A stretch of DNA of 64,000 bases from Methanoculleus horonobensis. GTDB lineage: Archaea; Halobacteriota; Methanomicrobia; Methanomicrobiales; Methanoculleaceae. The stretch lies in NCBI RefSeq assembly GCF_001602375.1, contig NZ_BCNY01000014.1, positions 1-64,000 on the forward strand. The letters run 5' to 3'. The position numbers and the translations under genes are program-made. Positions 29,309-45,395 of this stretch are shown one piece after another (positions within the stretch are counted from its first letter, which is position 1; each line of letters starts with the position of its first letter). The notes under the pieces are model-generated. The model was given only the letters and a program-made list of their open reading frames with translations. It had not been told where the DNA came from and made no database searches.

Positions 29309-30274
29309 ATGGGCAATCTGAATGTTGCCGTGCTGGGGCCCGCCGGTTACGCAAAAGACCTCGGGAAGAAAGGCACGGAATCCGATATCACCTTTTATAA
29401 CCTGAAGAAGGGCGAGGACACCGTCACCATCATCGAGCCTACCCGGTATCCCGAACGGCTGGCTCCGCTCTTCTACGCCGCGTCGATGGCGGATGCGGCT
29501 CTCGTCGTTGTCGGCGAGATCACGCCGACGCTCGGGGAGTGGGTGTTGATGCTTGACGAAGCGCGGGTGGAGCGAGGCTACATCGTCCTCCAGAATTACC
29601 TGACGCCGGAAGACGTCGCGCCGCTCTTCCGGGGGACGGTGCTCGAGCGCTACGAGTTCGTAGACGTCGACCCGATCGCGCTGCGCGATCTCCTGCTTGG
29701 CGAGGCGCATGCCCGCACCTCTCTCCCGCCTGCTGCCGGTGCGGTGGGAACCATCCCCATCGATCACCACTTCAACGTCCGCGGCATCGGGACGGTCATC
29801 CTTGGCGGCGTGGTGCGGGGCGGTATCCGGAAGCACAGCGCCCTGAAGGTCTACCCCGGGGGGCGGGCGATCACGGTGCGGTCGATCCAGAAGCACGACG
29901 ACGACTTCGACTGGGCCGCCGAAGGCGACCGCGTGGGGCTTGCGCTCAAGAACATCGAGTCGGACGACCTCGATCGCGGGTTCGCCCTCTCCGACGACCC
30001 CGCAATCCGGCTGGGTGCGAAGATCGAGGCACGGGCGACCCTGGTGAAGTACTGGCCGGCGCCGCTCACGGCAGGAACGGTGCTCCACCTCGGCCACTGG
30101 ATGCAGTTCATCCCGGCGCGGGTGGAGGCGGTGCAGGACGACGGCGACTGGCGGCGGCCGACGCTCACGCTCGTGCTCGAACGAGATCTCGTCTACCTCC
30201 CGGGGGATGCGGCGGTGCTCCACTACCTCGAGGGCGGGAAACTCCGGATCGCCGGGCATATCGAACTCGCGTGA
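29309..30274 (+). CDS. SelB/EF-Tu-like protein with a degenerate GTPase domain
   Basis: A 321-aa protein with EF-Tu-family architecture: an N-terminal G-like domain (about 1-120), a beta-barrel domain 2 (HHFNVRGIGTVILGGVVRGG) and a third barrel-like part. The usual GHVDHGKT P-loop is replaced by GPAGYAKDLGKKGTES, and no NKxD motif is seen. It probably does not hydrolyse GTP in the normal way. It resembles archaeal SelB-like/EFpyl-type proteins of unknown function. Confidence 0.78.
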   Translation: MGNLNVAVLGPAGYAKDLGKKGTESDITFYNLKKGEDTVTIIEPTRYPERLAPLFYAASMADAALVVVGEITPTLGEWVLMLDEARVERGYIVLQNYLTPEDVAPLFRGTVLERYEFVDVDPIALRDLLLGEAHARTSLPPAAGAVGTIPIDHHFNVRGIGTVILGGVVRGGIRKHSALKVYPGGRAITVRSIQKHDDDFDWAAEGDRVGLALKNIESDDLDRGFALSDDPAIRLGAKIEARATLVKYWPAPLTAGTVLHLGHWMQFIPARVEAVQDDGDWRRPTLTLVLERDLVYLPGDAAVLHYLEGGKLRIAGHIELA

Positions 30275-30453: not shown

Positions 30454-31491
30454 TTAGATGAGCCTGAAGAACGGGTGGGTGTCCACCTGGGGCTCGATGC
30501 CGAAGTCGCGTGCCGCTTCCAGCACGACGATGTCGACGTAGGCCTGCGCGGTGATCATCGCCTCGACGTTCTCGATCGGGCCGTACATGATGAGGTCGGC
30601 ACCGAGGGTGCTTGCAACCATGTTGCAGCCGATATCGGGCGCAGACCAGGCCGCCTGGCGCATGCCGTCCGTACCACCGAGGTAGTGGTGCGTGAGCTGC
30701 TCGATGAGTCCTTCTTTGCCCTCGAGTCCGGCAAGCTGCTGCGAGGGAGTCTTCTTCGTTCCCTTCCAGCGTTTCAGCCAGGTCCAGGAGACGGTCATGT
30801 TGTGGTAAGCGCCACCGGTGGGGAGGCCGTGGATCGCCTTGCAGGCGAGAATCTCACGGTACGAACCGCCGGAGCCGAGACCGAGCGGGGTTGCCGCGGT
30901 GTCGAGGATCGGGCGGGTGATGCCGCACTTCTCCGCGATCTCGAGCATACCCATCTCCTGTCCCGCGACGCCGCCCTCGGTCAGGACCTTCTCGCGGCCG
31001 GCAACCGACGGGTCGCCGGGGTTGAAGGCAAGGACGATTGCTGCGTTTACATCGCTCTTAGCGAGCGCTTCGATGTTCTCGGGCAGGATCGAACCGTTGA
31101 TCGAGTTGTAGATCGCACGGTCCGCAATGCCGGCCTGGGTGACGTACTCGCACGCGTGGGCGAGCGCCGCCGGGACGGACGAGTCCATCAGGAACGCGGT
31201 CTTGTCATCGATGCTGCAGAACCAGTCGATGTAACTCTCGAAGGCCTCGCCGAACTCCCCGATGATCTGGATGAAGTGGGGAATGCCGGTGATATCCGAG
31301 AGTTCCTGACAGCGGTTCCAGAGCGCCTCTGCCTTTGGTTTGTCAATCTTTCCAGTGTGGTCATCCAGTACAACTTCGTGCTTGTTGTAGAAGATGGATG
31401 CACCGAGCACGGTCGGGTACTCTCCAGGCTGCCCGCCGATCTTGGTACCGTTGAAGTCGTGTACCGTCTGCTCTTTTTCGAACTTGAACAT
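30454..31491 (-). CDS. mtrH: Methyl-H4MPT:coenzyme M methyltransferase subunit H
   Basis: A 345-aa peripheral cytoplasmic subunit that transfers the methyl group from methyl-H4MPT to the corrinoid on MtrA. It is recognised by KFEKEQTVHDFNGTKIGGQP at the start and the TIM-barrel core with IGEFGEAFESYIDW and NPGDPSVAGREKVL. The ATG at 31491 follows aaaggagga, a strong Shine-Dalgarno. It is the last gene of the mtr operon. Confidence 0.97.
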   Translation of the reverse strand: MFKFEKEQTVHDFNGTKIGGQPGEYPTVLGASIFYNKHEVVLDDHTGKIDKPKAEALWNRCQELSDITGIPHFIQIIGEFGEAFESYIDWFCSIDDKTAFLMDSSVPAALAHACEYVTQAGIADRAIYNSINGSILPENIEALAKSDVNAAIVLAFNPGDPSVAGREKVLTEGGVAGQEMGMLEIAEKCGITRPILDTAATPLGLGSGGSYREILACKAIHGLPTGGAYHNMTVSWTWLKRWKGTKKTPSQQLAGLEGKEGLIEQLTHHYLGGTDGMRQAAWSAPDIGCNMVASTLGADLIMYGPIENVEAMITAQAYVDIVVLEAARDFGIEPQVDTHPFFRLI

Positions 31492-31507: not shown

Positions 31508-32245
31508 TTACAGGTACCCAATCAATTTGGGCAGTAATACCAACAACATCATGAATACAATCAAACCTGCGACCAGTCCGTACAGGATGCCGATATCGCG
31601 CCCGATCTTCCTTCCGACGCGCTGGGCGATCTCGGCATCGACGAACTCGATCCTTCCCTCGATGGCGTTAAGCCTCTCCTCGATCTCAAGGAACTGCGGG
31701 TTTGCACCTGCAACGGCAACTTCCGCCGCACCGCCTGCTTCCTTGACCTCGACGATCATGGGTTCCGCGCCGAAGGCACCGGGGTCTCTGGCCTTGAGTT
31801 CGTCCATCTTGGCCTTGATAGCACCCATGTCTTCGCTTTCCATGATGTTGACGATCTCGACCTGTTCCTGGAAGCGCTTGATCGCTTCGTCGGAGAGGTT
31901 CTCGATGAACGGGATGGCTCCCTGAGCGCCGACGATCTTTCCGCCGGAGACTCCGCCTTCGTGCAGGGCCATGAAGCTCTGCCCGGACAGGTGTCCCTTG
32001 ACCTCCGTACCACAGCAGAGGATGAACCTGATGTTGGGGTTGGAGATGACGTTCGCGATGATCTTCTCGAGGCCGAGATTCTCGGTCTTGCAGGACCCGG
32101 CGATTGCCGCTCCGGCATCGCAGATGCCCTGCTCGTCGAGGTGGGATCCCATGGTGACGACGCCGACGCAGCTCTGTGCATCTCCTGTGTGGAAGTCGCC
32201 CTGAACGATCGGCCATCCACTGGCCGGTGATTTCTTCTCAACCAT
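31508..32245 (-). CDS. MtrA corrinoid domain fused to MtrG
   Basis: A 245-aa protein in the mtrG slot of the operon. Residues 1-177 are an MtrA corrinoid-binding domain, 174 of 177 residues identical to the separate mtrA two genes upstream, including the cobalt-ligand His in GTEVKGH (His85). From about residue 180 it becomes Mtr[21 protein letters not shown], then [19 protein letters not shown] and one membrane helix. The chimera is intact, in frame and spaced like the rest. Consequence inferred: each Mtr protomer may carry two corrinoid domains. Confidence 0.93.
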
Positions 32246-32246
32246 G

Positions 32247-32456
32247 TTAGATCGCCCCCAGCATCAGTGCCGGAATCACAATCAGAAGTACGGCTACTAA
32301 GAGCCCGATTGCGAATCCGAGGATCCCCATGCCCATGATGCCCGACTCAAGTTTGGTCGTGCGGGCAAGGATCTGTGCCTTGTACCGGATGGAATCCATC
32401 ATTCTGTTGATCGAGGTCATCCGGATGGGGCCTGCCTGTGTAACTTCTTCTGCCAT
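32247..32456 (-). CDS. mtrF: Methyl-H4MPT:coenzyme M methyltransferase subunit F
   Basis: A 69-aa small subunit with a single C-terminal membrane helix (about 43-66). It lies between the full mtrA and the MtrA-MtrG fusion, the standard mtrA-mtrF-mtrG order. The motif [20 protein letters not shown] is typical of Mtr small subunits, where it contacts the neighbouring subunits. Confidence 0.9.
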
Positions 32457-32461
32457 TTATC

Positions 32462-33184
32462 TCACCCCAGCAAGATGAACCCCAGAATCACGAACGAGAC
32501 GATCAGGCCGATCATGAGACCTTCGATCTTGCCCGAGTAGACACCGGCGGCAAACTTGTTGCGATAGCCTATGTCGGTGACCATCCGCTCGATGACTTTC
32601 ATCCGTGCGTGTACCAGTGCCAGTTCGCCGGAGAGCGGCTGTACTTCACCGGTCGCTTCCTCTGCCGCACCGCCCGCTTCCTTGACCTCGACGATCATGG
32701 GTTCCGCGCCGAACGCACCTGGGTCTTTGGCCTTGAGTTCGTCCATCTTGGCCTTGATAGCACCCATGTCCTCGCTTTCCATGATGTTGACGATCTCGAC
32801 CTGTTCCTGGAAGCGCTTGATCGCATCGTCGGTGAGGTTCTCGATGAACGGGATGGCTCCCTGAGCGCCGACGATCTTTCCGCCGGAGACTCCGCCTTCG
32901 TGCAGGGCCATGAAGCTCTGCCCGGACAGGTGTCCCTTGACCTCCGTACCACAGCAGAGGATGAACCTGATGTTGGGGTTGGAGATGACGTTCGCGATGA
33001 TCTTCTCAAGGCCGAGATTCTCGGTCTTGCAGGACCCGGCGATTGCCGCTCCGGCATCGCAGATGCCCTGCTCGTCGAGGTGGGATCCCATGGTGACGAC
33101 GCCGACGCAGCTCTGTGCATCTCCTGTGTGGAAGTCGCCCTGAACGATCGGCCATCCACTGGCCGGTGATTTCTTTTCAACCAT
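32462..33184 (-). CDS. mtrA: Methyl-H4MPT:coenzyme M methyltransferase subunit A
   Basis: A 240-aa corrinoid-binding subunit. Residues 1-177 bind 5-hydroxybenzimidazolyl cobamide, with the lower cobalt ligand His85 in GTEVKGH. A linker and one C-terminal membrane helix (about 215-238) anchor it. The ATG at 33184 follows gaggtga; a start 4 codons earlier is possible. The corrinoid domain is almost identical to that in the downstream fusion gene. Confidence 0.96.
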
Positions 33185-33197
33185 GTTCTTCTTCACC

Positions 33198-33482
33198 TCA
33201 CAGCAGTCCTAATACGACGACACCGGCAACCAGAAGGCCGATTGCCATGCCGTACCAGAATGCGGTCACGCCTCCGGCGACATTGAGAACACCTTCCCTG
33301 TTCGGGAACGATGCCAGGAAGTTGCCCTCTCCGGAGAGCATACCGACCAGGTCGTCGGTAATCTTCTCAAGTTCCGTCACCTGCTCGAGCACGGGGGTGT
33401 ACGAGACACCGGAGGTGGTGACAATGCCGACCATCGGGTCGACGACCAGGCCGAACTCGGGCAGTACCTGAACGTACGCCAT
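33198..33482 (-). CDS. mtrB: Methyl-H4MPT:coenzyme M methyltransferase subunit B
   Basis: A 94-aa subunit with one C-terminal membrane helix (about 72-93). The motif [20 protein letters not shown] near the N-terminus is characteristic. It abuts mtrC with no gap. Confidence 0.93.
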
Positions 33483-36273: not shown

Positions 36274-37980
36274 TTACCGGGCCGGAATGATGAGCGAACG
36301 CTCGCCGGCGGGCATGAATTCGCGGATGGCACCCTTCGCGAACTCGCGACGGGGCTCGGCGAAGTCGAACTTCAGCGCGGGGTCGGCGAAGCAGATCTTC
36401 ACCCGCGGGTCGAAGCACCACGCGTCGCCGCGGCCGTAGTGGGCACCGCCGGTGATCGCGGCGTACTCGCCCTGGTGGCCGACGTTCATCGCGTAGTTCG
36501 GGTAGTTCGGGCCACGGACCTCGCCGATCGCGCCCTCGTCTCCACGGATGGAGAGGGAGTTCGCGGAACCGCACTGGTCCTGGAGGTCGTAGCCGAAGAA
36601 GCCGAGACGCGACCATCCGTCCTTGTGCAGGAGCATGCAGAGGTACCAGGCGTTCAGGCCGGCGTTGGAGTTTCCGGTTGCGATCGAGGCGGAGAGACCG
36701 GACGCAGCGGCAAGGACACCGGCACGCTGGGAACCGCCGAAGTGGTCCTCCATCATGGTCGGGTACTGCTCGTACTGCTCCATGCCGTTCAGGGCGACCT
36801 CGGTCGAGATGTCGTTGACGATGTCGTAGGTCGGCTTGACCTTGTCGTCTGCGCTCGGGTTCTTCCAGTCGACCTTGTACTTGTCCTTGATGTAGTCCAT
36901 ACCGTAGTAGGTGAACTCATCGAGGATGTTGTCGGTGTAGGCCGCGGTTGCGTACTGGGTGAATCCGACACCGCCGGACATGTAGGAGCCGAGCCAGATC
37001 TGGTCGAACAGCATGGTTCCGGCGCCGACGACCTCAAGGGAGGCCTTCGCGGGGTCGTTCGGGTACTTCCGGTTCGCCTGGACGATATCCGAGAAGAGAC
37101 CGAATCCGATACCACCGGGCTCGTTCGGGCCACGGGCACGCCGGGCGGGCAGGTGGGACGCCATCTGGATGACGCCTGCGTGCTTCGCGGCGTAGGAGAG
37201 GTCGGCGACGGCCGCTTCACCGGCGCACATACGGTAGGCACCGATGAAGGACATACCGATCTGCATCGCAGACCACCGGGAGGTCGTTCCACCGTCGCAG
37301 GTCCGGGAGACCGTGGTCGGGATGTGGATCGCCTGCCAGAGGGACTTCCCTACGGCTGCGGAGAGCGCTTCGGCCTGCTTTCCGGGGAAGAGCTTCTCGA
37401 CATCGAGGACGAACTGCGGCTCGAGGTCGTCGGCGAGTTCCTGGTCGCCGGTGAAGACCTTGACGTAACAGTCGTCGACGAGGCCGGGGTGAGTCTCGAC
37501 CATGTGCTCCTGAACGACGGCCGCACCGGGCATCGCGTGGTTCAGCACGTGGAGGTACTCGTTGATCGTCTCGGGGGTGACTTCCTTGCCGAGACGCTTC
37601 TGCAGCGTCTGGTGGGCGAGGTCCATGTTGACGATGACAGTCCTCCTGATATCGTCCCACATCTGCTGCATCGCAGCGTTGTTGACGAAGTGCAGGTCGT
37701 CACCCTCCACGAAGACGCCGGTGCCGGAGACCTCGTAGGTCATCAGCTGGCGCTGGCCGAGCGGGATACCGCCCAGGTGGCAGCGTACGGGGTCGTACAT
37801 GGAGATGCCGCGGTCCATCTCGACGGCACGGCTGGCCTTGACGAACTCCTCCTTGCGGGGAGACTGGTGGTAGCCGTTGAACTTGTAGAATTCAGTCGTC
37901 TCGGACTGGACGTCCTGGCCCTGGAACTTCTCCTTGAGGGATTTCAGGAAGAGCTTCTGGGTTCTCTCAATCTTTGCCAT
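36274..37980 (-). CDS. mcrA: Methyl-coenzyme M reductase subunit alpha
   Basis: A 568-aa alpha subunit of the methane-forming enzyme, which converts methyl-CoM + CoB-SH to CH4 + heterodisulfide. Active-site features are visible: KHAGV (His267, site of N-methylation in relatives) and the Arg-rich [11 protein letters not shown]. Also present are [14 protein letters not shown] with the catalytic Tyr343 and GGSQRA with Gln418. [11 protein letters not shown] holds the thioglycine position Gly463 and Cys470. Compared with the Methanothermobacter numbering I remember, there seems to be a small insertion between 343 and 418. Last gene of mcrBDCGA. Confidence 0.98.
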
Positions 37981-37985
37981 TGGAA

Positions 37986-38750
37986 TCAGGCCTCCTTGGG
38001 TAGGAACCCGTATTTTGTTCTCAGCGTGTGGATCCGCTGGACGTACTCGATGTACTCCTTGTCGTCACGGTAGGCAGTGCCGCCGAGCGAGTGGAAGATC
38101 GTCGTGTGCGCCTTGAGCCACTTCTCGTCGAGCGGCTTGCCGATGGCAACCGCACGGTCGAGAGGCTCGCCGATCTGGTTCTTGACGTAGCGGACGATGC
38201 CGTCTTCGCCAAGGACGCTCCTCTGGAGCATATCGAACATCATGCCGTTCTCGGCAAGACGGAGCGAGTGGCCGTGCACGGTCGCGCCGCGGATGCCGGT
38301 GCGGGCCGGGTCGAGGAGTTCGGTCTCGACGAGTTCCTTGGAATACTTCTCGAGGTCGCGCTCGCGGCACTCGACGATCTGACGGCCGGAGAGCGTACCG
38401 GGGTCGATACCGCGGAAGCGGTAGCACTCGGTGTAGGTCCGCTGGTAGGGGTGGCAGGGGGCAAAGAACATAGAGTCCGCAAACTGGATGTAGCGGACAC
38501 GGTCGCCTGCCTTCGCACCCTCCGTCGGGGTTACGATCTTCCTGATGGGGCAGTCGGGCTCCTGCTGCTCGGCGAGCGGCGGGTGGGCCGTCGGATAGGC
38601 GGCTCCCGGGGCCCTGTGGCCGAGGACCAGCACGATGTCCTCATCAGTTACGTCACGCATCTTCTCAAGCTTCTGGTTGGGGTCCATCTGCTTGCGCCGG
38701 TTTGCGGCGACATTGGATGTACCCGGTCCGTATTGGGGCTTGTATGCCAT
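37986..38750 (-). CDS. mcrG: Methyl-coenzyme M reductase subunit gamma
   Basis: A 254-aa gamma subunit of the alpha2-beta2-gamma2 enzyme. It opens [20 protein letters not shown] and contains [20 protein letters not shown]. The ATG at 38750 follows aatgaggtga; an in-frame start 7 codons earlier overlaps mcrC and is not conserved. Confidence 0.97.
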
Positions 38751-38767
38751 GTTTTCTTTCACCTCAT

Positions 38768-39391
38768 TCATGTTGGGCTTTTTAGCACTTTCATAACGGC
38801 ACGAATGACCTCTGCCAATTTTTCCCTGCCCGGTGTCTGACCCCGTGTCACGCCGCTGACGATATCCATCACGATGCCTTTCGTCTTCGTCCGGTCGGGC
38901 GGCGGCATAACCACTGCGGTCCTGATCCCCTCTTTTGCGAGATCCTCGAAGTCGATCGGTACCTGGGATACGACGATGGCCTTGATGCCTGCGTGCTCAA
39001 GGATGAACCGGACTTTCTGCACGACATGGGAGCGGACGTTCCCATGATGCAGGATGGCTACCTTGTGCTGCTCGATCTGGGCGATCTCTTTCTCCGTCAG
39101 CCCGAAATAGGCTCCGAGCACGTGACCCGCGACGGGCGAATCCGCCGGAACCCCGCTTCCTGCGTTGAGGACGAGCGTGGTCACGGAGAACTCCGCCCCC
39201 TCCCTCCGGAGACCGGAGGTGATGTCGCAGACCGGTTTTGTTACGTGTCTGCGGCCGGGGGACATTCCAATCACGATCACATCGGGAGACCTGGTCTCGG
39301 AGATGGTGCCCCGCTGGGCAAGACCGCCTCCTTTACCCATTCCCATGCTCTCGCGGCAATCGACAACCTGAGTTACTCTTCCGATTGGCAT
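38768..39391 (-). CDS. mcrC: Methyl-coenzyme M reductase operon protein C
   Basis: A 207-aa accessory protein reported in other methanogens to belong to the ATP-dependent MCR activation complex. It has QVVDCRESMGMGKGGGLAQR near the start and PPPDRTKTKGIVMDIVSGVT near the end. Its presence marks this as the mcr operon and not the mrt isoenzyme operon, which usually lacks C. Confidence 0.93.
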   Translation of the reverse strand: MPIGRVTQVVDCRESMGMGKGGGLAQRGTISETRSPDVIVIGMSPGRRHVTKPVCDITSGLRREGAEFSVTTLVLNAGSGVPADSPVAGHVLGAYFGLTEKEIAQIEQHKVAILHHGNVRSHVVQKVRFILEHAGIKAIVVSQVPIDFEDLAKEGIRTAVVMPPPDRTKTKGIVMDIVSGVTRGQTPGREKLAEVIRAVMKVLKSPT

Positions 39392-39392
39392 C

Positions 39393-39869
39393 TCACTTGT
39401 TTCCCTGAATGATAACGGGACCGCCTTTCTTCCTTGGATCGACGAGCCCGAGAATTTCTCTGTCGGCGTCAGGTCCGTATTTCGCGTAGTCGGACACCGT
39501 CGGTGTGGTCTTCATGAACCGCCCCTTCTGGACGGCGCAGGAGAAGTCCTTGTTGGCAAAGACCTCGTCGACCGCTTCCTCGATGGCCGGGATGTACGAC
39601 TCGTCCTCGAGTTCCAGGATAACAGTTCCTACCTGTACCTCGAGCTGGACGTCCTGGTCTCCGACACGGATGACCTTGCGGTCCGGGTGGGGGTTGGGTT
39701 TCCCCCGTGCCGGGCCGTAGGGAACGGTGGCGGGAAGATTCTGCCCGGTAAGAGACATCCGGAGAATCCCGCCGATCTGAACAAGTCTGTTCAGAAGTTG
39801 TTCCACCGTATCGGGTCTGAGGAATCGCGCAGAAACGATTCGAACCTGAGGGTATATGGCTTCGGTCAT
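39393..39869 (-). CDS. mcrD: Methyl-coenzyme M reductase operon protein D
   Basis: A 158-aa accessory protein thought to help MCR maturation. The conserved core is VRIVSARFLRPDTVEQLLNR and PYGPARGKPNPHPDRKVI. The ATG at 39869 is the family start; an upstream in-frame extension would overlap mcrB. One base separates it from mcrC. Confidence 0.92.
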   Translation of the reverse strand: MTEAIYPQVRIVSARFLRPDTVEQLLNRLVQIGGILRMSLTGQNLPATVPYGPARGKPNPHPDRKVIRVGDQDVQLEVQVGTVILELEDESYIPAIEEAVDEVFANKDFSCAVQKGRFMKTTPTVSDYAKYGPDADREILGLVDPRKKGGPVIIQGNK

Positions 39870-39885
39870 TGGTATCCTTGTGTTA

Positions 39886-41190
39886 TTACACACCCTTTGC
39901 GATCTGCTGTATCGGCTTGTTGAAGACGTCAACCTGGCCGAAGGTGTCGCCGTAGACCTTGGATGTGCTCTCCGGCGAGAACATCTGCGTTCCGGCATCG
40001 AGTGCCGCCGCAGCGACCACGCACGGGATAGCCACGCCTGCGGCGTGCCTGGTCACGACGTGGTTGCCGTTGAAGATACCGGGGCCGCCGCCACCATAGA
40101 TCGAGTGGCTGAAGAACGAGAACCCGACGGCGGTACCCATGACACGGCCGTAGTCACAGCCGGGGAGGCCGGTCTCGTGCTCGAGCAGGTCGTTGAAGTA
40201 CAGGAGCGTCGAGGAGACTGCCTGGGCGAACCGTCCGGCACCGCAGTTGACCATGGTGGCTGCCATGGTTCCCGCAGCGGCGTAGGCGTTCCAGAGCATC
40301 GGGTCCTTCGTGTCGTAGAACTGGAAGTACCCGCCCTTCTTGCCCGGCGTGATGACCTTGTCCTCGATGGCGCGCTCGACCAGGCTCTGGACGACCGTAC
40401 CGATGGTGCCGGAAGCACCGTTCTTCTTGACGAGGTCATAGACCAGGTTGTTCGCGTTCAAGCCCTGGTAAGCGTAAGTGAGCAACTGGGCACGCTCGAA
40501 CGGTCCGATAGCGTTACCCATCTCAAACATTCCTGCCTGCTCGAAGGTGGACGAGAGTGCGGCACCCTGCATCGCGTTCTTGCCGGTGATCATCACGGCG
40601 TGGTTGACCGGGATGTTCCGCAGCGCGTAGCCGAGGCCTTCGTTGTTCTGGGGGATCGACAGAATGGACGTGACGTTGGCACCGGTAAGGTCCATCGTGT
40701 GCGGGTAGGAACCCCAGACTGCCGCCTTGACCATCGCTGCGTCGAACGCCCCGATGTCGAACTGCTCGACGAGCGAGAAGGTGGTCGCGGATGCCACCGC
40801 GGTGATCGCGGCGTCGTAGGTGGATGCAGCCTCGAGACGGGCCTTGGGAGCCTCGACGAGGATGAGCTTGCCACCGCCGAACTCGCGGATGTTGGTGTCG
40901 TCACCCTCCTCGACCTGGACCATCTCCTTGATCTTGGCGATGATGGCATCCTTGTTGCCGATGATGTCGAGGTTCATCTCACGCCCGAGAACATATCCCT
41001 TGGCTACCTTTCCGGTCTTCAGGCCTTCCTGAATTCCGCCCAGGTTGACTGCAATCGTCCTCTTGGTGAGGTCGATGAGTTTCCTGGTCGCCGGGTTGAC
41101 CAGCGGGCTGATCTTCTCGAGCGGTACACCACTCTTCAACTGCTTGCCTGCATCATCGTACAGGTCAATAGTTTCCTTGTATTTTGCCAT
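39886..41190 (-). CDS. mcrB: Methyl-coenzyme M reductase subunit beta
   Basis: A 434-aa beta subunit, first gene of the operon. It is identified by the conserved SHSIYGGGGPGIFNGNHVVT near residue 355 and by AALDAGTQMFSPE near the C-terminus. The ATG is preceded by a strong Shine-Dalgarno (taatggagg). Confidence 0.97.
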   Translation of the reverse strand: MAKYKETIDLYDDAGKQLKSGVPLEKISPLVNPATRKLIDLTKRTIAVNLGGIQEGLKTGKVAKGYVLGREMNLDIIGNKDAIIAKIKEMVQVEEGDDTNIREFGGGKLILVEAPKARLEAASTYDAAITAVASATTFSLVEQFDIGAFDAAMVKAAVWGSYPHTMDLTGANVTSILSIPQNNEGLGYALRNIPVNHAVMITGKNAMQGAALSSTFEQAGMFEMGNAIGPFERAQLLTYAYQGLNANNLVYDLVKKNGASGTIGTVVQSLVERAIEDKVITPGKKGGYFQFYDTKDPMLWNAYAAAGTMAATMVNCGAGRFAQAVSSTLLYFNDLLEHETGLPGCDYGRVMGTAVGFSFFSHSIYGGGGPGIFNGNHVVTRHAAGVAIPCVVAAAALDAGTQMFSPESTSKVYGDTFGQVDVFNKPIQQIAKGV

Positions 41191-41323
41191 AATTTTCCTC
41201 CATTACCCTCTTTAAGTGCATACAATCCGTGAGTGTGAAATGAACGCTAAAAGCATCGCTGACTGTGGCTGATGGTGACTACTGCACGTCCTCGTGGGAC
41301 AAAATGATAGTAACCTTCTCTGA

Positions 41324-41332
41324 TGATATAAG
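41324..41332 (-). promoter_or_regulatory. mcr operon TATA box (proximal)
   Basis: The minus strand reads gcttatatc. It predicts a start near 41302 and a leader of about 110 nt before mcrB. A second TATA-like run (gatatatatttg on the minus strand, about 41356-41370) could give a longer transcript. Confidence 0.5.
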
Positions 41333-41538
41333 CATTGCTATTTATGTCTATGAACAAATATATATCGCGAGTCCGATATTAAATATCTGCTGGAAAATTG
41401 TCGATTGCGGGGAATTGTAAACGTATCTCGCCTCGCCTGCCGTAGCATGAAAATGGTAAAAAGTTGTTATTTCGTGCTACGCTTTTCATACCGATCGCAT
41501 CCGCTCTCCGACGATCGATACACCGTATATGTGGTCGC

Positions 41539-41545
41539 AAAAAAA
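41539..41545 (-). terminator. T-run terminator after fwdC
   Basis: Seven A on the plus strand give T7 on the fwd strand, about 8 nt beyond the fwdC stop. It ends the long fwd-hdr operon before the mcr promoter. Confidence 0.65.
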
Positions 41546-41552
41546 GAGGGTT

Positions 41553-42359
41553 TCAGGCCTCGATCCGCTGGTAGAGTTTAGCGTAAATTGTCTGGCCCTT
41601 TCTCTTTCGGTGGCGCTCTCCGAGATCGCCCTCGTAGAGAGCGAACCGTCCTTTGATGCCGTCCATATCGACGTCGACATCCTCGCGGTATGCAAACCCG
41701 GGCATCATGACATCGATCTTGCCGAGGACATAGATCTCGCCTTCCACCATCTGGCCGCCGAGACGGCTCTTTGCATTGCCCTTGATGATGATCTTTCCAC
41801 CCTCGGCATGGGTGGCGACATGGACGTCGACGTCGCCGCCGATGACGATCTCGCCGCCGTTCATGAAGGTGGCAAGGTCGCTCCCGGCATTGCCGGTGAC
41901 GGTGATCTTGCCGCCCTGCATGCCACGCCAGTCGCCGCGGTATGCGGCGCCGAGGTAGTTGCCGGCGTTGCCGTTGATGACAAGCTCGCCGCCCTTCATG
42001 CCGGTTCCGGCAAAGGCATCGACGTTCCCGTTCACCGTGATCTTGCCGCCCTGCATCCATGCCCCGACGTACATATCGGCGTTGCTGTTGACGACGATCT
42101 CGCCGCCGTTCATCTTCATGCCGATGTACTTGACCCGGGACAGGTCGCCGTTGACGACGATCTTCGTCTCCTCGGGCGTTGCTCCGGCGTTGCCGGAGAC
42201 CTCGAAGAAGTCCCCGAGCCGGTGCTCGTCCCTGCCGACGTAGACGGGGAGGTCGGCGATCTCTTCGGCCTTCTTCCCGGCAAACGCGTCGGGGACAATG
42301 CTGTCGGCCTCGAGGTAGAGATCGGGCTGGTTCTTTATGGTGACTGTAACGGTTTCCAT
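41553..42359 (-). CDS. fwdC: Formylmethanofuran dehydrogenase subunit C
   Basis: A 268-aa subunit with the repeating beta-helix of the glutamate synthase GXGXG family. Successive turns are NGGEIVVNSNADMYVGAWM, QGGKITVNGNVDAFAGTGM and KGGELVINGNAGNYLGAAY. It scaffolds the A and B subunits. Last gene of the operon; it follows fwdA by 12 nt. Confidence 0.95.
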   Translation of the reverse strand: METVTVTIKNQPDLYLEADSIVPDAFAGKKAEEIADLPVYVGRDEHRLGDFFEVSGNAGATPEETKIVVNGDLSRVKYIGMKMNGGEIVVNSNADMYVGAWMQGGKITVNGNVDAFAGTGMKGGELVINGNAGNYLGAAYRGDWRGMQGGKITVTGNAGSDLATFMNGGEIVIGGDVDVHVATHAEGGKIIIKGNAKSRLGGQMVEGEIYVLGKIDVMMPGFAYREDVDVDMDGIKGRFALYEGDLGERHRKRKGQTIYAKLYQRIEA

Positions 42360-42371
42360 CCTTATCTCTCC

Positions 42372-44078
42372 TCACTCGGTAGCATCAACCTCGATGACAT
42401 ACGGGTTCGGGAGGTAGTGCCCGGAAACCTCGTAGTTGTTCAGGGTGACGGTGTAGTAGCGGAGGAACTTCTCCTTGACGTCACGCATCACCTGCGGGTT
42501 CTCGTTGACCTTTGCGTTCACCCAGAGCGTCCGCTTGTTGCCGTTGCTGGCGATCTCGTGGTCGCGGACGACCTGGACACCGGCCTTGAAGAGGTGCTCT
42601 GCGTTCAGGAATGCCTTCTCGATATCGTCGGGCGCGTAAGGCTCGTTCGGGTTGAAGTCGAAGACCGCAACATCTGCTTCGAGGCCGGGGGCAAGCCCGC
42701 CGTACATGTGTGAGAGACCGAGCGACTTCGCGGGTCCTGCCCGGGTCATCTGCGCGATCTCGTAGAGGTCGAGTTCGCGGTCGATGCCGGCGAGGTTGGT
42801 CGCGTCGATGACCTTGTCCTTATGCTTGAAAGCGTCGAACTGCTGCTCCCGTGCTTCCTGGCTCATCAGCCACTTCATGACCCGCGGGTAGCGGATGAAC
42901 GGTCCGGCGTTCGGGTGGTCGGTGGTGATGAAGATCCGCATGGGGTCCTTCGCAAGCAGTCCGAGTTCGAGGCCGATAGCCCACTGGATGGCGCAGACCT
43001 TGATGTTCGGGCTGTAGACATAGGGCACGACACCCGAGCCGGTCTCGAGTTCCACATCGGCGTTCGCCCACTTCAGGTGGTTCAGCTCGGTGAGGTGGTG
43101 CTCGAACGGCCCGTCGGCGGTCATGGTCGTGGTCTCGTCGAGCGTCACCTGACCCATGTCGATGGTGATGTTGTCGTGCGAGTTCACGTAGTCCATGATC
43201 TCCGTCGCCTTCGACTCCACGTTCGCCCAGGAGTCGCCTCCGTAGGAATGGAACTGGACGTGGGTGTGGTGCATCACCTGGTCGCGGCCGAACTTGCTGT
43301 TCGGCTTGATACCCTCGGAGAGTTTGAACGAGTCGAGCGTCGTCGTGTAGTTGCCGGGGTTCCCGAGGTTGTTCGCGTGCATGTGCATCGAGTGCGGGAG
43401 ACCGAGGTACTCGTTCGCCTCGATGAGGCCCTTGATGATCTGGGCCGGGGTGATGTCGAAGTAGGGAACCGGGTCGTGAACATTCTCGCAGTTCAGGCCC
43501 CAGGCCCAGGCTTCCGTGCCGCCGGGGTTGACGACCTTGACTGCGTAGCCCTTCGTGGCGCGAAGCAGCCAGGCGATGTAAGCGGCGGTGTTCTCGATCT
43601 CGTGGTTCTTCAGGTACTCGAGGACGAACCAGTTGTTCCCGAAGACCGGGTAGGCACCCTGGTCGAGGATCGGCGTGTCACGCATCTCCTCGTGGGTGTG
43701 CCGGGCGTAGAGCGGCGGCATGGCCGCTTCCATCACGGTCGTGTAGCCCATGTGGGCGTAGTTGTAGCCGGTCCGGATCGTCGTCGGGACTGAGAACCCG
43801 CCCTGCATCCGCTCGATGCCGTGTCCGGCCGTGCAGTTGAAGAGTTTGTCTTCGGGGCGGAAGTTCCTGCCTACATTCACCTTCGGGCCGGCAACATGGG
43901 CGTGGATATCGACACCGCCGGCCATGACGGTCTTGCCGGTCGCATCGATGACCTTCGGGTTGCTGAGAGCCGTCGTCTCGACGATCTTGCCGTCCTTGAT
44001 GGCGATGTCGGCCTTATCGCCCTTGATCCCGAGAACCGGGTCGAAGACGAGTCCGTTCTTGATAAGATACTCTGCCAT
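42372..44078 (-). CDS. fwdA: Formylmethanofuran dehydrogenase subunit A
   Basis: A 568-aa amidohydrolase-fold subunit that condenses formate, made by FwdB from CO2, with methanofuran at a binuclear metal centre. The metal-binding motif is in GGVDIHAHVAGPKVNVGRNF; further ligand histidines lie in SMHMHANNLG and VMHHTHVQFHSYGG. It lies 3 nt after fwdB. Confidence 0.96.
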   Translation of the reverse strand: MAEYLIKNGLVFDPVLGIKGDKADIAIKDGKIVETTALSNPKVIDATGKTVMAGGVDIHAHVAGPKVNVGRNFRPEDKLFNCTAGHGIERMQGGFSVPTTIRTGYNYAHMGYTTVMEAAMPPLYARHTHEEMRDTPILDQGAYPVFGNNWFVLEYLKNHEIENTAAYIAWLLRATKGYAVKVVNPGGTEAWAWGLNCENVHDPVPYFDITPAQIIKGLIEANEYLGLPHSMHMHANNLGNPGNYTTTLDSFKLSEGIKPNSKFGRDQVMHHTHVQFHSYGGDSWANVESKATEIMDYVNSHDNITIDMGQVTLDETTTMTADGPFEHHLTELNHLKWANADVELETGSGVVPYVYSPNIKVCAIQWAIGLELGLLAKDPMRIFITTDHPNAGPFIRYPRVMKWLMSQEAREQQFDAFKHKDKVIDATNLAGIDRELDLYEIAQMTRAGPAKSLGLSHMYGGLAPGLEADVAVFDFNPNEPYAPDDIEKAFLNAEHLFKAGVQVVRDHEIASNGNKRTLWVNAKVNENPQVMRDVKEKFLRYYTVTLNNYEVSGHYLPNPYVIEVDATE

Positions 44079-44081
44079 CGG

Positions 44082-45395
44082 TTATACCCCCTTGATCTCC
44101 TTGACGCGTCCAAGAACGCGTTTCAGGAACTCTTCGTCGGTCATCATGCCCTCGGGGGCATCAACGACTTTTCTCGTCTCAATCGGTACGTTGTCCATCC
44201 GGTAGGCGCACCCGCCCACCTCGACGCCGACGAAGGCGACCGGGACATGGACCTTGCAGACCTCAGAGGTCGGGGTCTCATGGGGGTCGATAACGACTGA
44301 CGGGAGGTTGTAGATCTTCTTGACCGAGCTGAACGGGAAGTGCGCACCTGGATCGCTGCCGAGGACGAAGACGGCGTCCACCTCGTCCCTGCGGAGCAGG
44401 TCGTTGGAGGTCGTCTCGCCGGGGTTGTAGCGGGCAAATCCGCGGGAGAGGTCCACCGCATAGGGGAACCCAAACTGCCAGCCCCAGACCTGGCCGGAGC
44501 CGGTGACGTTGTAGTGCCCGCGCATCGGCATGATGGCTGCCTTCGTGTACTCGTTTAAGTCACGGGTGACCGCGATGGCCTCGTCGATGTTGTGGTTCTT
44601 CCCGAGCGACTGGGTCACGCCCATGCCGAAGAAGATGATCGCGAACCGACCGCTCTTGAGCGTCTCGGCGGCCTCGTAGATCTTCTCCTTCGGGATGCCG
44701 GCAACGACGTCGGGGAGTTTCTCACCCTTGAACGCCACACGGAGCGCGTTCAGGAGCTCGTAGTCGCGTCCCTGCTCGATCTGCAGGTGGATATCCGCCA
44801 TGCTCGCGGTATCGGTGGGGCGCGGGTCGACGACGATCATCTTGCGGCCGGTGTGGCCCTTGCCGGTGAAGAATCCGCGGGGGAAGATCGAGTAACGGGA
44901 CATGTGCCGCGGGTGGGCGTGTGCCGGGTTGCAGCCCCAGAAGAGGATCCGGTCGGCACGGTTCTTGACCTCGCCGAGCGTGCAGCTCGGAATGCCGATA
45001 TCCTGAACCGCGATAAGGGATGTTCCGTGGCAGACGGTCGCCGTGTTGTCCATGACCGCTCCCACGGCCTCACCGATCTCCGAGCCGACGGCCTGGGCTT
45101 CACAGTTCGTGGAACTCCAGCCGTACATCAGCGGCTTCTTTGCTTCGGCGAGCATCGTTGCCGTGTACTCAATCGCCTCGTCGTACGAGATCTCCTTCCA
45201 GGATCCGTCCTCCTGCCGCATGCGGGGGCGGGTGATTCTGTCCTTTGCCTGGGAATGGAGGAACTTCTCGGCGCCGATGGCGCACGCGTTGTAGACTTCG
45301 TGAAGTTCTTTCCCGTCATCGCTGACGACGACCTCGAGGTCGTCGCAGAGGGTTCCGCAGAACGGGCAGATAACGTCGGTTACAGTCCGGGTCAT
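44082..45395 (-). CDS. fwdB: Formylmethanofuran dehydrogenase subunit B (W/Mo catalytic subunit)
   Basis: A 437-aa molybdopterin-type subunit that reduces CO2 to formate. A [4Fe-4S] motif (C10, C13, C17, C38) opens the protein. The metal ligand is Cys122 in TATVCHGTS, a cysteine and not selenocysteine. Sequence alone does not tell tungsten from molybdenum. It overlaps fwdD by 4 nt. Confidence 0.95.
   Translation of the reverse strand: MTRTVTDVICPFCGTLCDDLEVVVSDDGKELHEVYNACAIGAEKFLHSQAKDRITRPRMRQEDGSWKEISYDEAIEYTATMLAEAKKPLMYGWSSTNCEAQAVGSEIGEAVGAVMDNTATVCHGTSLIAVQDIGIPSCTLGEVKNRADRILFWGCNPAHAHPRHMSRYSIFPRGFFTGKGHTGRKMIVVDPRPTDTASMADIHLQIEQGRDYELLNALRVAFKGEKLPDVVAGIPKEKIYEAAETLKSGRFAIIFFGMGVTQSLGKNHNIDEAIAVTRDLNEYTKAAIMPMRGHYNVTGSGQVWGWQFGFPYAVDLSRGFARYNPGETTSNDLLRRDEVDAVFVLGSDPGAHFPFSSVKKIYNLPSVVIDPHETPTSEVCKVHVPVAFVGVEVGGCAYRMDNVPIETRKVVDAPEGMMTDEEFLKRVLGRVKEIKGV

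Follow-up and report, generated by a model that had tools for sequence, protein, structure and literature searches.

Mtr, a sodium-pumping methyltransferase, is the only energy-conserving step common to CO2-reducing methanogens, and a large part of the methane flux of wetlands and digesters comes from the Methanomicrobiales. In the canonical complex (structures 8q3v and 9qtq/9qts; MtrA structures 5l8x and 5laa), MtrG is a short separate peptide and each protomer holds one corrinoid domain. The helices of MtrA, MtrB, MtrF and MtrG form a stalk, and a flexible linker lets the corrinoid domain of MtrA swing back and forth from MtrH to MtrCDE (PMC10998594). Its cobalt ligand is His85 in M. mazei and His84 in M. 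marburgensis (PMC4915002, PMC12774963).

MtrA domains fused to other Mtr subunits have been described before. Wang et al. (2015) named an MtrA-MtrG fusion mtrA-2b and found it in all eight complete Methanomicrobiales genomes of that time. They inferred long-lasting gene conversion between mtrA-1 and mtrA-2b from trees, GENECONV and RDP, with conversion in every pair and a mean identity of 92.4% (PMC4632066). For Methanococcales and Methanocella arvoryzae, the same study described a fusion of MtrA with MtrF, named mtrA-2a (PMC4632066). A 2018 survey in Communications Biology counted mtrA with the prokaryotic genes in which concerted evolution has run longest (PMC6053082). In TACK, ANME-1 and Methanoliparia, operons of the type EDCB[AF]FGH carry an MtrA domain fused to MtrF, followed by a small peptide labeled mtrF (PMC9982363).

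The locus analyzed here shares with mtrA-2b the MtrG partner, the slot between mtrF and mtrH, the loss of the MtrA tail and the near-identity to mtrA-1. Because the fusion and its homogenization were both published in 2015 (PMC4632066), neither is new. As in mtrA-2a, a second MtrA domain sits on another stalk helix and is homogenized with mtrA-1; the partner, however, is MtrG here and MtrF in mtrA-2a, and the two fusions have independent origins. The EDCB[AF]FGH arrangement is similar in that the corrinoid domain is carried by a helix not its own, but it has a single corrinoid domain. What our sequence comparison, covering 91 operons instead of eight species, adds to the account of mtrA-2b is the lapse of conversion in some lineages, the edges of the converted tract, and the conservation of docking residues where conversion has lapsed. 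We consider it probable that this ancient, conversion-homogenized fusion uses the MtrG stalk helix to tether a second working corrinoid shuttle.

The mtr operon of Methanoculleus horonobensis

The window, i.e., the whole 64-kb stretch of DNA analyzed here, contains a minus-strand operon with the order mtrEDCB-A-F-[A2G]-H, as identified from open reading frames and Pfam matches. The contig that holds it is 520 kb long, and the genome is nearly complete. This genome has exactly two MtrA domains, both in the mtr operon. The features are:

36079-35183, minus strand: mtrE; mtrD and mtrC come next, before mtrB
33198-33482, minus strand: mtrB, directly upstream of mtrA (PF05440)
32462-33184, minus strand: mtrA (mtrA-1), 240 aa (PF04208, E=1.7e-84; TIGR01111, 344.8 bits)
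32669-33184, minus strand: corrinoid domain of mtrA-1 (aa 1-172)
32930-32932, minus strand: His85 codon of mtrA-1
32247-32456, minus strand: mtrF, 69 aa, unfused, between both MtrA domains (PF09472, E=1.8e-21)
31508-32245, minus strand: mtrA-2b/mtrG fusion, 245 aa, in the mtrG slot (PF04208 and PF04210)
31730-32245, minus strand: corrinoid domain of the fusion (aa 1-172), a copy of 32669-33184
31991-31993, minus strand: His85 codon of the fusion, cobalt ligand
31700-31729, minus strand: fusion linker (aa 173-182), at which the identity to mtrA stops; predicted to be disordered
31511-31699, minus strand: MtrG stalk/transmembrane helix of the fusion (aa 183-245)
30454-31491, minus strand: mtrH, directly downstream of the fusion (PF02007)

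Other genes of methanogenesis lie next to the operon. The stretch 36274-45395 (minus strand) has mcr genes (A, G and B identified) directly upstream of it, followed by an amidohydrolase and a molybdopterin protein that resemble formylmethanofuran dehydrogenase subunits. The mcr, mtr and formylmethanofuran dehydrogenase-like genes thus make up one cluster with three methanogenesis steps. On the other side, convergent with mtrH, a gene at 29309-30274 (plus strand) encodes a 321-aa protein with a Pfam match to EF-Tu domain 2 and none to the GTPase domain.

A complete MtrA domain joined to MtrG

The fusion comprises a whole MtrA corrinoid domain and a truncated MtrG. Residues 4-173 match PF04208 (E=2.2e-84; 281.8 bits against a curated cut-off of 25) and residues 183-236 match MtrG, PF04210 (E=6.3e-22; 77.7 bits against a cut-off of 27), within which the GRDIGILYG helix is conserved. 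After residue ~175 the remainder is MtrG, and the C-terminal helix that MtrA itself would carry is missing. The fusion also lacks the first ~9 positions of a normal MtrG: its PF04210 match begins at profile position 10, as opposed to positions 1-8 for MtrG outside Methanomicrobiales. The N-terminal segment of MtrG is replaced by the MtrA linker, which makes the protein a fused variant of MtrG. Against the canonical Mtr structures, both halves match in sequence and fold. The nearest named match is from Methanoculleus sediminis, of the same genus as the window (98% aa identity).

The residues expected of a cobamide-binding domain are in place. His85, its hydrogen-bond partner Glu55 and the GAIPF.EN meander are present in the fusion, and mtrA-1 likewise has His85 and Glu55. 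An AlphaFold model of the fusion has the MtrA fold (TM-score 0.94, normalized to 5l8x), a linker of very low confidence (aa 170-182, pLDDT < 50) and one long helix (183-244).

The two corrinoid domains of the window are nearly identical. They differ at 9 nucleotides in codons 1-172 (516 nt), at 11 of 525 nucleotides (97.9% identity) and at 14 in 531, and the first 175 residues differ by three substitutions (T118S, D120E and K153R). The repeat begins at the ATG; the 60 nucleotides upstream agree at 22 positions only. It ends in a Gly-rich linker at residue ~176, with different membrane helices thereafter; in mtrA-1, the corrinoid domain (aa 1-172) is followed by a Gly/Glu linker and its own stalk/TM helix. 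The preliminary description had recognized the gene in the mtrG slot as an MtrA domain joined to MtrG, nearly identical to mtrA and with the cobalt ligand His85 kept in both copies. The two Pfam domains in one 245-aa reading frame and direct comparison of the copies bear this out; the residue count is 173 of 177 instead of 174, the earlier coordinates and counts being right within a residue or two.

Only 6% of four-fold sites differ between the two domains of the window genome, against a median of 34% between species of one genus and 56-61% between genera. This excludes a chance likeness of the two domains. Furthermore, the fused domain is 98.0% identical to mtrA-1 of the same genome but 95.9-96.9% identical to the domains of the closest species (best A2-A2 and A1-A1 comparisons; A1 denotes the mtrA-1 domain and A2 the fused one).

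The fusion is a shared derived trait of Methanomicrobiales

Among 149 Methanomicrobiales genomes searched, MtrG is present in 134, and we found none with a demonstrably unfused MtrG. Wherever a contig spans the gene, the MtrG reading frame is long enough for the fusion. Short-frame MtrGs were considered as candidates for unfused genes; those inspected proved to be contig ends, N gaps in the repeat and one frameshift (L240). The region is spanned at 92 loci: 91 show A1, F, A2G and H, and in L050 an N gap falls within A1. His85, Glu55 and the GAI.F.EN core are present in 91/91 fusions, and His85 in 90/90 readable mtrA-1 copies. Elsewhere in the phylum, MtrG is fused in none of 80 genomes and never lies in a frame longer than 140 aa. 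Thus, the fusion, found in every readable Methanomicrobiales operon and in none of the 80 other genomes, is a shared derived trait of the order.

This distribution also dates the fusion. The comparison of mtr operons across Methanomicrobiales that the preliminary description had proposed shows the fusion with the same gene order throughout, so that it predates the last common ancestor of the order. The linker-helix junction (N)PQFLE, which is specific to A2G, is kept in 90 of 91 fusions, as expected from one origin.

An assembly chimera is the artifact against which the preliminary description had set its reading. The repeat does break short-read assemblies (N gaps in L050, L239 and L241, a collapsed or deleted copy in L083, and contig ends). 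However, 27 single-contig genomes have the same fusion and gene order, and the window contig is 520 kb long; the chance that the structure is chimeric is negligible.

The fragility of the repeat, which measures ~0.5 kb, has its own consequences. Many contigs end inside it, and mtrG is lost in 15 of 149 genomes; mtr surveys of metagenome bins will therefore undercount A, F and G. In L083 (G115), A2G comes directly after mtrB, with no mtrA-1 or mtrF, and only a single MtrA domain is seen in this genome. Either the repeat was collapsed in assembly or a real deletion occurred by recombination between both domains.

Gene conversion keeps the two domains alike

The two domains of a genome are generally closer to each other than to those of other genomes. 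In comparisons drawn from 91 complete operons, identity within a genome has a median of 96.5% (range 78.9-100), compared with 86% among species of a genus and 72-75% among genera. Across the order, 8% of four-fold sites differ within a genome versus 56-61% between genera. In a tree of 178 domains from 89 genomes, A1 and A2 of one genome are sisters in 60 of the 89 genomes, and no clade of A1 only or A2 only spans genera.

Four-way site patterns test this history directly. When the window genome is compared with five Methanoculleus species, sites that split the paralogs in both species occur only at nucleotide 9 and from nucleotide 510 onward, and at 10-17 interior sites per comparison the two copies have changed in concert. 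Order-wide, the share of such common paralog-split sites is 2-6% in the first 450 nucleotides and 26% in the last 75. Old differences between the paralogs thus survive at the edges, while the interior has been overwritten.

The preliminary description had left a choice between recent duplication and ongoing gene conversion. A recent duplication in the window lineage would account for the 97.9% nucleotide identity, but it is contradicted by the order-wide synteny and by the trans-species, paralog-specific sites at the tract edges, since independent recent duplications cannot leave edge differences common to species. We regard it as highly improbable. An old duplication without conversion could not leave a concerted interior and is rejected as well. 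Judged from identities within and between genomes and from the four-way site patterns, the two copies match through recurrent gene conversion and not through recent origin.

Conversion has lapsed in some lineages

Conversion between the two domains is not universal today. The copies have diverged in Methanospirillum (g31), its relative g22, g4, most of g12 and two genomes of g18, with a milder divergence in g21 (89% nucleotide identity). In the lapsed lineages, the copies differ at 16-21% of nucleotides and at up to 17% of amino acids, and paralog-specific sites shared between species often outnumber concerted ones. Species share such sites in Methanospirillum (L103-L107 and L126) and in the pairs L054/L055, L059/L060, L065/L066 and L115/L117; from these patterns, conversion between A1 and A2 appears to have stopped before those species split. 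The lapse in Methanospirillum and a few other genera is apparently new, as we did not find it in the 2015 study (PMC4632066).

These lineages provide a test of function, because the fused domain should decay there if conversion alone kept it intact. We see no such decay. In the 14 genomes with diverged copies, A2 has kept to the same slow pace of change as A1 since the two separated. The AlphaFold models in PMC10998594 supply a set of 17 positions around the cofactor or on the faces that dock with MtrH and MtrCDE. At these, A1 and A2 differ in 0 of 238 comparisons, versus 335 of 2156 elsewhere; this places A2 under the same constraint as A1 but does not show that it docks simultaneously with A1. 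Orthologs are about equally conserved at these positions (1.6% differ, against 27% elsewhere). The fused domain is thus held to the same standard as MtrA itself. We also looked for consistent residue differences that would mark a division of labor between A1 and A2; none occur in the domain, and the commonest ones lie in the linker or run in both directions.

This evidence bears on a simpler explanation, in which the likeness of the copies is a by-product of tandem proximity. The fused domain would then add only dosage, or nothing, while MtrA-1 does the work and MtrG, being essential, cannot easily lose its passenger. Canonical Mtr indeed needs one MtrA per protomer, and conversion would restore a decaying copy. 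Against this, the lapsed lineages keep the fused domain under strong purifying selection with every cofactor and docking residue intact, and none of the 149 Methanomicrobiales genomes has a demonstrable stand-alone MtrG. Moreover, both paralogs are essential in Methanococcus, where the partner is MtrF (Sarmiento 2013, as cited by Wang et al. 2015; PMC4632066). We therefore rate a by-product as unlikely; the absence of decay indicates that selection acts on the fused copy itself. The lapsed lineages offer a means of asking which parts of the second domain, residue by residue, are really maintained by selection.

A probable second corrinoid shuttle on the MtrG helix

In the reading we prefer, a second working shuttle tethered by MtrG would have arisen as follows. 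A duplicate of the MtrA corrinoid domain would have lost its own anchor and taken the place of the ~9 N-terminal MtrG residues, in a single event that predates the last common ancestor of the order. Recurrent conversion homogenizes the two domains, which lie ~0.94 kb apart in one operon, from the start codon to the linker and leaves the membrane tails distinct. The product would be an MtrG stalk helix bearing a second functional B12 domain on a flexible linker. Each protomer would then hold two corrinoid shuttles, six per trimer, each taking a methyl group at MtrH and delivering it to coenzyme M at MtrCDE. Conversion would keep both shuttles fitted to the same docking surfaces, and where it lapses, purifying selection alone would keep those surfaces identical. 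We infer that the fusion is produced at full length and enters the complex to which MtrA-1 belongs, and that it binds cobamide and transports methyl groups. A protomer with two corrinoid domains is plausible and indirectly supported. We found no published protein mass, cobamide content or structure for Methanomicrobiales Mtr, nor any proteomic evidence on the fusion.

The tether itself could be lost if the fusion were cleaved, or if MtrG were made from an internal start, to give a soluble corrinoid protein and a normal MtrG. Other methanogens do have soluble MtrA homologs (PMC4915002), and the disordered linker is a possible protease target. Yet the only in-frame ATG, GTG or TTG at residues 160-200 is ATG163, which lies inside the domain and is also in mtrA-1, and 30 of 91 fusions have no ATG or GTG in this interval. 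The junction between linker and helix is also kept, as noted above. A search for an internal start of a short MtrG gave no conserved candidate among the 91 fusions. Separate products are accordingly improbable, and a second domain that stays tethered to the MtrG helix is the better account.

How two shuttles would share one complex is suggested by M. mazei Mtr, which has three MtrH dimers, i.e., six barrels per three MtrA (two MtrH per MtrA). There, MtrH docks on a sheet formed by the N-termini of MtrB, MtrF and MtrG, and the distal barrel is thought to be hard for MtrA to reach (PMC12774963). By analogy, the N-terminus of the MtrG helix would carry the fused domain next to an MtrH docking sheet of the M. 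mazei type. That the second shuttle serves the distal barrel is speculative. It is conceivable, but rather doubtful, that the two shuttles of a protomer work simultaneously, the MtrA-borne and the MtrG-borne domain being matched to the two barrels of the MtrH dimer, which face in opposite directions; one could then be methylated while the other drives sodium pumping. Against two shuttles, MtrG trimerizes at the stalk core in the membrane, and three extra domains would need room. The whole order appears to run a two-domain Mtr; every solved Mtr structure is from a lineage that has only one corrinoid domain in each protomer.

MtrA domains on MtrF-type helices

A corrinoid domain can evidently work while attached to a foreign helix. 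In families f10 and f12 of the phylum, which are probably ANME-1 and Methanoliparia given the operon type in PMC9982363, 13 of 16 genomes carry their only MtrA domain on an MtrF-type helix. The fusion is then followed by a stand-alone peptide of 61-72 aa (L209, L210, L211, L217, L218 and L219). Against profiles of the canonical tails, the fused tail scores 49-61 bits with F and 6-10 with A, and the small peptide scores 36-38 bits with A and 8-13 with F. These scores suggest that the peptide is an orphaned MtrA anchor, i.e., the result of a tail swap, and not a duplicate mtrF.

Family f14 differs in its arrangement. In L212, L213 and L214, mtrA is accompanied by an MtrA-MtrF fusion, and the two MtrA domains are nearly identical, as reported for Methanocella arvoryzae; L215, another member of the family, lacks the fusion. 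In L214, mtrG is moreover present as two genes in tandem.
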